Shown: one piece after another, positions 995 through 5,282 of the stretch
Numbering within the stretch: the stretch's first letter is position 1
How the letters are laid out: every line of letters starts with the position of its first letter
NCBI GenBank assembly: GCA_024699595.1
Contig: JAILPG010000167.1
Coordinates: forward strand, 1 to 6,737
Length of the DNA: 6,737 nucleotides
Origin: Lachnospiraceae bacterium
GTDB lineage: Bacteria; Bacillota_A; Clostridia; Lachnospirales; Lachnospiraceae
Direction: 5' to 3'
Notes under the pieces: generated by a model
What the model saw: only the letters and a program-made list of their open reading frames with translations
What the model was told of the DNA's origin: nothing
Database searches by the model: none
Made by a program: the position numbers and the translations under genes

Positions 995-1456
995 TTACAT
1001 TCCAAACTCTTTGCAGAGCCTGTCATATCTCTCCTGTTCCTTTTCCTTTACAGCCTTTGAAAGATCATTCATAACATGATGTATCACATCTGCATCCTTA
1101 AGCACTTCATCCATAGGACCATCCGTAACAAGCTTATCATCATGATGATATACCGCAGAACATATCATGTCAGTTTCCGAAGCATCCGTAAGCTTAAGCT
1201 CATCCAGTATCTGTCTTGCAAGCTCAGCTCCCTTATGTGCATGGTCTTCATAAGAACCGCTCGTATAAGCATAAAGGTCATGCAGCATCGCCGCCATTGC
1301 TGACAGCTCCGGATCAAGACCTCTTTTCTTTGCTATCATTGTTGCTGCCAGGGATACTCCATAAAGATGCGCTATAGCAGATGTACGCTTATCCGCGTCT
1401 TCCATCCTGTTGATCTCTGCATCCACATATCTGCGAAGTTCTTTTAATCTCCCCAT
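995..1456 (-). CDS. HD-domain phosphohydrolase family protein
   Basis: This 153-residue soluble protein has the HD superfamily metal-binding layout: His30, the His59-Asp60 doublet (in AAMLHDLYAY), further histidines at 72/74 (DHAHKGAEL) and 104/105 (VYHHDDK), and a distal aspartate in KDADVIHH (Asp121 or Asp123). Such proteins are metal-dependent hydrolases acting on nucleotides or other phosphate esters. The substrate cannot be read from the sequence. There is no signal peptide or membrane segment. The ATG at 1456 overlaps the stop of the SGNH hydrolase gene (TAATG), and a ribosome site (GGAGGA) lies inside the end of that gene, so translation is likely coupled. The stand-alone domain is close to the size of small HD hydrolases, so no extra regulatory domain is present. 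Confidence 0.85.
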   Translation of the reverse strand: MGRLKELRRYVDAEINRMEDADKRTSAIAHLYGVSLAATMIAKKRGLDPELSAMAAMLHDLYAYTSGSYEDHAHKGAELARQILDELKLTDASETDMICSAVYHHDDKLVTDGPMDEVLKDADVIHHVMNDLSKAVKEKEQERYDRLCKEFGM

Positions 1457-2421
1457 TATTTATCCTCCCTATGGTTCACCGGCAGCCATGCTTTTATCTC
1501 ATCTGCAAGATTCCTTCCATAAGCTCCTGCCCCAAGACAGTTCGGATGAAGGTTGTCCAGATAGTATTCACATAGATGCGGCACCAGTTTAAATCCGTCT
1601 GCAACCGTAACATTTTTATAGCTTCCGGCTATCTTCTTAATATTCTCACAAAAGCGTTCAAAGGTCTCGAATTCATCAGGATGATCACCTCTCCAGATAG
1701 GTGAGATACAAAGAACCGGTATCTCCGTACCATAGATTCCCATCAGAGTCTCATAATATTCCTCAACATCCGTCATGGTCTCCGAACCGTATTGATTTGT
1801 TCCAAGCGCAACAATGATCCTGTCAGGATCATAGCCTTCCATTTTCATCAGGGATTTCTTATCATATACATATCCGCCGATACCCTGGTTGATAATATCA
1901 AAGTCCAGAAGTCTGTTAGCCACACTGACATATGTCATACCGGATCGGAGAGGGCCAAATCCCTGTGTAATGGAGTCTCCAAGCCAGAGTACTTTTTCTC
2001 CCTTCACCGGTCCTTTTACATCAGCGTTTATCTCAAAATTGCGTACCAATACGGTTGCATCAGCCGGAAGATAAATGACGACTTGCTTCTCGCCCTTCGG
2101 AAGAATCCAGGTTAAATTTCCTTCTTTCTCTATATCTTTTACATATACTATCTTTGAGATAAGTCCATCCAGCATCAGTTCAAAGGAATCCGGCGACCCC
2201 ATCCAGATGATCTTATAATCAAAAGACAGCTTCGTGGCTGTAGTCACAAATTCGATCGTCTTGGCGGTAGAAGCCATGCATCTGTCATACCAGAAGTCAA
2301 AAGCCCCTTTGAAATAGTCCATCTGTGCCTCGGAATACTGGAATGCCTGCAGCCAGCCATCCTCCGTATCCTTAAAACTATAGGCTCCGAAATAATACTT
2401 CTTTAACTCCTCATTTGTCAT
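1456..2421 (-). CDS. Two-domain SGNH/GDSL hydrolase, probable carbohydrate esterase
   Basis: This 321-residue protein is predicted to be a serine esterase. The C-terminal domain (about 140-315) has all the SGNH blocks: GDSITQG with nucleophile Ser150, the oxyanion Gly180 in INQGIGG, Asn209 in ALGTNQ, and the Asp289/His292 pair in LDNLHPN. The N-terminal part (about 10-135) lacks these motifs and looks beta-rich, as in esterases that place a beta-sandwich domain before a GDSL lipase domain. Some relatives remove acetyl groups from sugars or plant polysaccharides; that substrate is inference. No signal peptide is present, so it probably acts inside the cell on imported, already shortened substrates. 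It follows the aldose epimerase gene by 16 bases, with a strong ribosome site (AAGGAGG), which supports a role in sugar metabolism. Confidence 0.88.
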   Translation of the reverse strand: MTNEELKKYYFGAYSFKDTEDGWLQAFQYSEAQMDYFKGAFDFWYDRCMASTAKTIEFVTTATKLSFDYKIIWMGSPDSFELMLDGLISKIVYVKDIEKEGNLTWILPKGEKQVVIYLPADATVLVRNFEINADVKGPVKGEKVLWLGDSITQGFGPLRSGMTYVSVANRLLDFDIINQGIGGYVYDKKSLMKMEGYDPDRIIVALGTNQYGSETMTDVEEYYETLMGIYGTEIPVLCISPIWRGDHPDEFETFERFCENIKKIAGSYKNVTVADGFKLVPHLCEYYLDNLHPNCLGAGAYGRNLADEIKAWLPVNHREDK

Positions 2422-2437: not shown

Positions 2438-3313
2438 TTATCTGACTATGATCTCATACCCTGCTTTAAAAACACATCCCTTAGCCAGCCTCTGCTCATG
2501 ATCACGATCCTTCAGTTCTCCGGAAAACGATTCAGAATCACATCTGCCATACCAGGGTTCTATACATACGAAAGGCGCATTCTTATGCGGAGGTGACCAC
2601 AGTCCCACCAGCGGCGCATCAAACTTTACAGTCAATAAGGAGATACTGTTTTCATCAATTAATGTAACGCTGCCGATCTGATGGTTTTCAAGAACCAGCG
2701 CATCATTGTCAAACAGCTCTTCCGAAAGAGAAAGCATGCCATCTATCAAAGAGATTTCTTCCGTTTTATCGGTTACGCAGCCCCCTTTACCAAATACGCG
2801 GTTCTTTATCGAACCGGCCTTTTTACCTTCTTTATCACTAAGTAAAAATGCATGTCCCTTCAGACGCTCTATCGCAAATCCCGGATGTGCGCCGATAGAG
2901 AAGAACATAATATCATCATTGGTATTCTTAACCTCCCACATGACTTTTACTTTTGTATCCTCTATCTTATAACCGATCCTGAGCAAAAAACGGAACGGAT
3001 ACTTTTCAAGGCTTTCTTTTGTCTCAGAAAGTGAAAACCATATTTCATCTTCTGTCCTGGATTCCAGAGAAAAATCCATATCCCTGGCAAAGCCATGCTG
3101 GCCAATAGAATACTCCTTTCCTTGATGCCGGTATGTTTTGTCCTTTACCCCGCCGACAAAGGGAAACAGAACCGGAGATGTCCTGTTCCAATAGGCCGGA
3201 TCCCCGCTCCACATAAATTCTTTTCCGTCTGATAAACGCTTCAGGCTCTTTAGCTCCGCGCCATGCAGATCAATTTCACAAACTATTTTTTCATTTTTGA
3301 TATCATATCTCAC
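2438..3313 (-). CDS. Aldose 1-epimerase family protein
   Basis: This 291-residue cytosolic protein belongs to the galactose-mutarotase-like superfamily, whose members interconvert the alpha and beta forms of aldose sugars or act on hexose-6-phosphates. Key positions are visible: NRTSPVLFPFVGG near 43-55, His73 in GQHGFAR, His143 in GAHPGFAI and the likely catalytic base Glu252 in CIEPWYGR. The two His and the Glu match the catalytic triad known for this family. Overall it resembles the shorter LacX-like branch rather than classical GalM, which is usually longer. The start is GTG (3313-3311): it is the in-frame codon 8 bases after a GGAGG ribosome site, while nearby ATGs are out of frame. It is the first gene of the operon, about 38 bases downstream of the predicted transcription start. 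The exact sugar is not deducible. Confidence 0.88.
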   Translation of the reverse strand: MRYDIKNEKIVCEIDLHGAELKSLKRLSDGKEFMWSGDPAYWNRTSPVLFPFVGGVKDKTYRHQGKEYSIGQHGFARDMDFSLESRTEDEIWFSLSETKESLEKYPFRFLLRIGYKIEDTKVKVMWEVKNTNDDIMFFSIGAHPGFAIERLKGHAFLLSDKEGKKAGSIKNRVFGKGGCVTDKTEEISLIDGMLSLSEELFDNDALVLENHQIGSVTLIDENSISLLTVKFDAPLVGLWSPPHKNAPFVCIEPWYGRCDSESFSGELKDRDHEQRLAKGCVFKAGYEIIVR

Positions 3314-3366: not shown

Positions 3367-3405
3367 TATCAGAGACACAGAGACCACCCATGGTCAACAT
3401 ACAGC

Positions 3406-3439
3406 AAAAAACCCCTCAAGCCTTATGCTTAAGGGGTTT
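3406..3439 (-). terminator. Intrinsic terminator downstream of the tRNA remnant
   Basis: Arms at 3411-3421 and 3427-3437 form an 11-bp stem with a five-base loop. Read on the minus strand the one imperfect pair is a G-U wobble, and the stem is followed by a run of six T (3406-3411). On the plus strand the same pair is a C-A mismatch and no good T run follows, so the minus strand is the working direction. It would stop transcripts of the tRNA gene that once lay immediately upstream and insulate the epimerase operon. Confidence 0.85.
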
Positions 3440-3446
3440 CATTCAG

Positions 3447-3480
3447 TCGAGGTGACTGGATTCGAACCAGCGGCCATCTT
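3447..3480 (-). other. tRNA 3'-end remnant (tRNA-Pro-like), probable att site
   Basis: On the minus strand this holds the T-arm (GCTGG, loop TTCGAAT, CCAGT at 3471-3455), the 3' half of an acceptor stem (CACCTCG, 3454-3448) and discriminator A (3447), followed within a few bases by an intrinsic terminator. No matching 5' acceptor strand (CGAGGTG), D-arm or anticodon arm can be found in the following 80 bases, so the tRNA is incomplete. CCA is not encoded. A C1-G72 pair with A73, implied by the fragment, is typical of tRNA-Pro, and the T-arm sequence also suits that assignment. Elements that integrate into tRNA 3' ends leave exactly such a duplicated tail at the far junction. I infer that this is the element/chromosome boundary, with host DNA to the left and element DNA to the right. 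The border past 3471 is approximate. Confidence 0.72.
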
Positions 3481-3668
3481 CAAAAAACACTATAAAGAAA
3501 GGGTTTTGAGGGATGTCTACTCTATCGTTCACCATCCGTTCACCATCTATTTTTGACAAAACTCTTTACTTTTCTCTGTTCCTTCTCCCATATAATAATA
3601 TACTGCATTCCGGGCTTAATGACAATCCCAAATCCTTCATATCAGCCTGCAATGCTTACTCCTACATT
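3481..3668. other. Non-coding stretch between the tRNA remnant and the recombinase gene
   Basis: Apart from the tandem repeat I see no convincing gene here. A minus-strand frame of 24 codons (3640-3566) lacks a good ribosome site. A short inverted repeat, CTACATT and AATGTAG at 3662-3668 and 3671-3677 with a two-base centre, straddles the stop codon of the recombinase. It has no T run on the minus strand and is not a convincing terminator. Confidence 0.5.
3526..3547. repeat. Perfect 11-bp tandem direct repeat
   Basis: CGTTCACCATC occurs twice head to tail with no spacer, at 3526-3536 and 3537-3547. The repeat is about 50 bp inside the tRNA remnant. Eleven base pairs is close to one helical turn, so a protein could bind both copies on the same face. 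Tyrosine integrases use short direct repeats near att sites as arm-type sites. This role is inference from position. Confidence 0.8.
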
Positions 3669-4381: not shown

Positions 4382-4490
4382 ATGTATTAAATCTAACGGT
4401 CGCTATCCTTAATACTATCGATGATACATCTTTTTCATCTTAAAATCAATAGTTTTGGTACTGATTTGTTGCAGGTTACATTTAATACAT
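4382..4490. repeat. 11-bp inverted repeat flanking the recombinase promoter
   Basis: ATGTATTAAAT at 4382-4392 is the exact reverse complement of ATTTAATACAT at 4480-4490. Related AATAC or ATACAT motifs occur between them at about 4409-4419 and 4420-4430. A cluster of short inverted sites just upstream of a small serine recombinase gene is the usual place for a res site or operator. The arms are too far apart for a terminator. The role is inferred. Confidence 0.5.
4421..4449 (-). promoter_or_regulatory. Predicted sigma-70-type promoter of the recombinase
   Basis: The minus strand has TTGATT (4449-4444), a 17-base spacer and TATCAT (4426-4421), four and five matches to the two consensus boxes. 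The start of transcription would fall near 4414, about 47 bases before the ATG. The promoter lies between the arms of an 11-bp inverted repeat, so the recombinase could repress its own gene. Confidence 0.55.
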
Positions 4491-4580: not shown

Positions 4581-5282
4581 ATGAGAAAAACAATCACCAA
4601 GACAGTATCCGTAAACGGAACATCTTATGAGCTTCAGGTTCATGAAATCGAAAGCAAGAACTATGAGTATGTTACATGCATGTATGTAGCCAGCTACAAA
4701 AAGATCATCGAAACACCCGGCTTTAATAGCAAGGATTTTAATGAGGAATTAAAAAAGGCTAAAATCAACATCTCCCTCAGCGAGCCCCCGGCTGACTCTA
4801 TGAGCAAGCAGGACTTAAGAAGCCTTGATTTGCCCGAGCTGATCAGCTGTGTTAATACTGCCGCCGAATTTCCTAAGGATCTCATCTATATGTATTCGCT
4901 TGGATTCGGCTTCAGTTGGGGATTCTTTACAGATCTCATGGAATATCTCGGATGTAAAAACATCAGCAGCATCAAGGCTAAGCCTCAGTACATCATCCCG
5001 GATGAAGTCCAGATGCCTGCCTTAAGCCATGGTATGAAGATTGTTGAAATCGGACACAAGTGGACTGGCACTCAGCATAAGGCCAAATTTTATCTTAACG
5101 ATAATGATGAAGCACTATTTCAGGACATACTTGGTGGGTATTCACAGCAGAACCAAAGCAAAGTTATCAGCGTTCTGATTGCCGAAAAGCTATCCGAGCT
5201 GAAAGCATATCAGGACAAGGGAATGCTCAGGATCAAATATCAAGACATTCTCGGTGAGGAACTTAAGAAGACAAACGAGTAG
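4581..5282 (+). CDS. Unrecognised protein with a ribbon-helix-helix-like C-terminus
   Basis: I cannot name a family for this 233-residue soluble protein. A strong ribosome site (AAGGAGG) stands 9 bases before the ATG. No signal peptide or long membrane segment is seen; residues 101-116 (YMYSLGFGFSWGFF region) are aromatic and hydrophobic but too short and isolated for a confident membrane span. Residues about 167-210 look like a strand (KAKFYLN), a helix (DEALFQDILGGYS), a turn, and a second helix starting QSKVISVLIAEKL. That order and the serine-lysine cap before the second helix resemble ribbon-helix-helix DNA-binding domains. It is divergent from the recombinase and precedes the relaxase gene on the same strand by 291 bases. 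It could be an accessory DNA-binding protein of mobilization, a regulator or a replication protein; the first is my preference, with low certainty. That it is a real gene is well supported. Confidence 0.8.
   Translation: MRKTITKTVSVNGTSYELQVHEIESKNYEYVTCMYVASYKKIIETPGFNSKDFNEELKKAKINISLSEPPADSMSKQDLRSLDLPELISCVNTAAEFPKDLIYMYSLGFGFSWGFFTDLMEYLGCKNISSIKAKPQYIIPDEVQMPALSHGMKIVEIGHKWTGTQHKAKFYLNDNDEALFQDILGGYSQQNQSKVISVLIAEKLSELKAYQDKGMLRIKYQDILGEELKKTNE

Follow-up and report, generated by a model that had tools for sequence, protein, structure and literature searches.

Islander treats a tDNA together with a displaced fragment of it as the mark of a genomic island (PMC4383910), and the available portion of that paper describes tyrosine-family integrases as the only ones known to target tDNAs. 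Integrative and mobilizable elements (IMEs) use similar targets: in the accessible part of a review of these elements (PMC5704250), most IMEs with a single tyrosine recombinase are said to use specific sites, including tRNA 3' ends, and a table places Tn6031 in a tRNA-Pro gene.

We analysed one stretch of DNA, here called the window, which is an entire contig of 6,737 bp. Like the islands described by Islander, the putative element in it has mobility genes inside and is bounded on one side by a displaced 3' fragment of a tRNA; the Islander definition, as given in the portion of the paper available, also needs an intact tRNA and a tyrosine integrase, however, and neither is in the window, where the contig ends (PMC4383910). 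The window likewise resembles tyrosine-integrase IMEs such as Tn6031, likened here by description in the accessible part of the review, in having a relaxase without visible conjugation apparatus by a tRNA-Pro 3' end, but unlike them it shows no integrase of that kind (PMC5704250). Our conclusion is that, very likely, a mobilizable element has integrated here into a Lachnospiraceae-type chromosome and the window shows the end of it with the displaced fragment.

An orphan tRNA-Pro 3' end

The initial annotation described a bare tRNA 3' end at this site, and the sequence bears this out. Read on the minus strand from 3475 to 3447, it consists of part of a variable loop (GGCC), a T-stem, loop and stem (GCTGG TTCGAAT CCAGT), the acceptor 3' strand (CACCTCG) and the discriminator A73; the tail thus stops five bases short of position 3480, where the initial annotation had placed its end. 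The tRNA-Pro 3' end taken from intact genes of relatives (L029 and L031) matches the tail with 2 mismatches and has no other match in the window, and the same query matched 0 of 200 dinucleotide shuffles. When the tail was aligned on A73 to six intact tRNA-Pro genes, identity ended at the GGCC of the variable loop, and GTTTTTT occupies the position where the anticodon loop would be expected. Hence, the 5' part of the tRNA is truly absent. ARAGORN, run across the site, called 0 tRNA genes in the window and Rfam gave 0 matches at E <= 1, both as expected, since only a fragment is present.

Folding of positions 3400-3490 gave a 5-pair T-arm and, directly downstream of it, a 14-pair hairpin. The fold has a z score of -3.35, with 0 of 200 shuffles as stable, and the hairpin contributes most of this stability. 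An intrinsic terminator had been proposed 3' of the tail. The hairpin with its T-run does fold, but a strict consensus terminator scan listed none there; in our reading the scan misses the hairpin since the T-run is for the most part paired within the stem.

Other copies of the tail were sought in 299 genomes from the family of G001, a Lachnospiraceae genome that holds a relative of the window's recombinase (L007), using the 29 bases with up to 2 mismatches. Matches were found at 7 places in 6 of the 299 genomes, with 0 exact. Six of these near matches are ARAGORN tRNA-Pro genes with anticodon TGG, AGG or CGG, and the assignment to tRNA-Pro therefore holds. At the seventh place (L034) stands another orphan tail and not an intact tRNA; there a tyrosine integrase (PF00589) reads toward the orphan tRNA-Pro tail and ends 164 bp from it. 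All 29 bases also occur, letter for letter and without a complete tRNA, on a 45-kb IMG/VR viral contig (L036). Whereas the scars of L034, L036 and G002 begin at the anticodon loop, that of the window begins in the variable loop; this sequence comparison suggests that its integrase crosses over at a different position.

Genes on either side of the tail

The features of the window are collected in the table below. As had been proposed, an ordinary row of genes lies to the left of the tail, with metabolic genes on the same strand, and the right side holds recombinase and mobilization functions: a recombinase, a relaxase and an ORF that belongs to no family. The recombinase and the relaxase start directly past the tail and on one side only, which counts for the element reading. 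GC content, at 0.426 to the left of the tail and 0.429 to the right, does not differ and counts against integration.

Features of the 6,737-bp window, those with coordinates in order along the contig
Feature	Position	Strand	Basis or remark
Acylphosphatase gene, cut by the contig start	3..224	-	PF00708
Further left-side ORFs, 186 aa (no Pfam match) and 65 aa		-	
HD-domain protein gene, chromosomal side	995..1456	-	PF01966
GDSL lipase/esterase family gene, chromosomal side	1456..2421	-	PF13472; relatives in Lachnospiraceae
Aldose 1-epimerase family gene, chromosomal side	2438..3313	-	PF01263
14-pair hairpin with T-run, terminator-like, host-side 3' flank of the tRNA	3408..3440	-	Fold
Orphan tRNA-Pro 3' end (29 bases; probable displaced fragment, putative att core)	3447..3475	-	
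Small serine recombinase, 232 aa	3669..4367	-	PF00239, E 1.2e-27; PHROG 125 "DNA invertase", E 4e-41
233-aa ORF	4581..5282	+	Two known relatives, no family match
MobV-like relaxase (Mob_Pre), open at the contig end	5574..6737	+	PF01076, 28.5 bits (cut-off 25.5)

The serine recombinase reads toward the tail, with its stop codon 193 bp away. PF00239 is the sole domain found in it and large-integrase domains are absent, which places it with the small serine resolvases and invertases; residues R12, S14, R71 and R74 are invariant across 21 sequences. A relaxase of its own, as expected of an IME, is present and scores above the Pfam cut-off for Mob_Pre. Against the NCBIfam MobV model (NF041497) it reaches 32.9 bits, below the curated cut-off of 100, and we therefore call it MobV-like only. 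The 233-aa ORF has two relatives besides itself among 5.8 billion proteins searched and matches none of the families in Pfam, NCBIfam, PADLOC or PHROG. Pfam and NCBIfam scans of three element ORFs, all within the 3.26 kb that are visible, detected no tyrosine integrase. Since the window is the whole contig, the far end of the element lies beyond readable sequence. A second copy of the tail is likewise absent from the 6,737 bp, which end inside the element, and this counts against the element reading.

Relatives of the GDSL gene were found in 12 of 299 and 11 of 397 genomes (overlapping draws at different E limits), and relatives of the epimerase gene in 4 of 12 and 33 of 195. An empty site was found in none of the genomes of these relatives that were examined, which again counts against integration, and none of the relatives proved syntenic with the window: no other window protein matched near them at E 1e-5. 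In the nearest genome, G360, the two genes are about 70-75% identical to those of the window and lie on separate contigs, and scanning of their flanks (L131 and L157) revealed no tRNA.

The serine recombinase family and tRNA tails

The recombinase belongs to a large family: 7,987 of 8,000 scored candidates pass E 0.001. For 8 of the 120 matches listed the longest contig exceeds 12 kb, which fits small plasmids or short metagenome contigs. We examined 26 genome places, 20 of them with stretches of 7 to 120 kb, together with 64 IMG/VR loci and the loci L001-L008. The viral loci came from a query with a 21-sequence alignment; single-protein and small-alignment queries had returned 0.

No tRNA tail was found in flanks of up to 1.5 kb at any of the 26 genome places, where at least 3 of the flanks are cut by contig ends. 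L007, whose recombinase is 76% identical to that of the window, has no tail in 20.7 kb. The 20 longer stretches were scanned with the general T-arm motif of tRNAs, and this gave 5 T-arm-like sites outside ARAGORN tRNAs (two in G178 and one each in G310, G249 and G339). Judged by eye, only the site in G310 convinces as an orphan tail close to the recombinase. It lies 2.9 kb from the serine recombinase (L072, T-stem at 14653, minus strand; G310:C21:37628-37657), and a search of the genome with its 30-base end, allowing up to 1 mismatch, gave this one place and hence no visible intact partner. G178 carries an intact tRNA-Thr 4.3 kb from the recombinase and no second tail in 120 kb.

Three of the 64 IMG/VR loci have tRNA-like sequence in the fetched flanks. 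At L226 this is an intact tRNA-Gln, about 1.0 kb away from the recombinase, at L210 a tRNA call that is unclear, and at L176 an orphan tail. Between that tail and the serine recombinase of L176 lies a tyrosine integrase of 390 aa (PF00589), which adjoins the tail. Two integrase queries detected a tyrosine integrase in 5 of the 64 loci.

Four plasmids of Clostridia, pRGI00071, pRGI00069, pRUMAL03 and pTVTCOM2, encode serine recombinases 55-58% identical to that of the window over 95-98% of its 232 aa. They differ from the window in being circular and in having no ARAGORN tRNA and no tail next to the recombinase; on pTVTCOM2 a single T-arm-like site lies elsewhere. Plasmid scans for the relaxase and for the 233-aa ORF gave 0 matches each and carry limited weight. 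A relaxase scan of 387 genomes also gave 0 at E 1e-12, and it missed a 25%-identical relative in G001 that was found otherwise; the scan is therefore not sensitive.

The best analogue is in G002. Its contig C82 carries a tRNA-Ala(GGC) tail without a 5' part; a serine recombinase with 52% identity to that of the window lies 4.5 kb away. Contig C22 of the same genome has an intact tRNA-Ala with 50 of 51 bases in common with the C82 tail, and the gene of a 405-aa tyrosine integrase ends 93 bp from this tRNA. Judging from the repeat common to these separate contigs, C82 and C22 may be the two ends of one element. The G002 stretch from the orphan tRNA-Ala tail to the serine recombinase encodes a NACHT protein of 1203 aa in which pentapeptide repeats are long (L008:6182-9793). 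It has no PADLOC match, and we read it as cargo of a tRNA-linked element.

Origin of the scar

Could the window's own small serine recombinase be the integrase that targets the tRNA-Pro 3' end? It is the sole recombinase visible, its catalytic residues are kept, and orphan tails accompany its relatives in G310 and G002. Most of what was seen around the family speaks against such a role: flanks at the 26 genome places and the 20.7 kb of L007 are free of tails, relatives sit on circular plasmids, and a tyrosine integrase adjoins the tail at the one IMG/VR locus of 64 with an orphan tail in its fetched flank, just as one adjoins the intact tRNA of G002. We consider this role very unlikely. The small probability that we leave to it comes from L034 and L176, whose tyrosine integrases, reading toward the orphan tail, stand in the exact place and orientation of the window's serine recombinase; this also counts against a separate integrase elsewhere in the element. 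A serine integrase at tRNA-Pro, if true, would be new and would go against the statement in the available portion of the Islander paper (PMC4383910). It is somewhat less improbable, though still unlikely, that the tail is a tRNA pseudogene, or a scar that is old or has decayed, and the mobile genes next to it are unrelated, being those of a second element that is not the scar's maker. Tandem elements at tRNA genes are known, according to the accessible part of the IME review (PMC5704250), and the far end is beyond the contig. The tail is undecayed, however: its T-arm pairs, the same 29 bases recur in L036, and the mobile genes start within 193 bp. An assembly misjoin that put element DNA next to a host gene row has hardly any probability in our view; a single 6.7-kb metagenome contig carries the junction, but the join coincides exactly with a biologically meaningful point, the inner edge of the tRNA 3' end.

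We therefore return to an integrated mobilizable element. With still greater confidence than for the window as a whole, we take the tail to be an integration scar; a tRNA-gene insertion scar such as this is real, ordinary and of a known kind. On this view, recombination would have taken place between a short segment of element DNA and the 3' end of the host tRNA-Pro gene, leaving the host's original tail and terminator-like hairpin at the visible end as a displaced fragment; at the far end, beyond the contig, the tRNA should be made whole by the copy of the tail that the element brought. By analogy with the loci above, a tyrosine integrase, presumably encoded outside the window, is likely to have made the scar, and the small serine recombinase is probably a companion resolvase or invertase. 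One end of a MobV-like mobilizable element would thereby be fixed in an uncultured Lachnospiraceae-type host, with tRNA-Pro as target. Apart from the hint of another crossover position, the finding is textbook.

Just upstream of the serine recombinase lies a 16-nt inverted repeat (4382-4397 and 4475-4490), whose arms are 94% complementary and 77 nt apart. By its pairing and position, it is a possible recombination or operator site.
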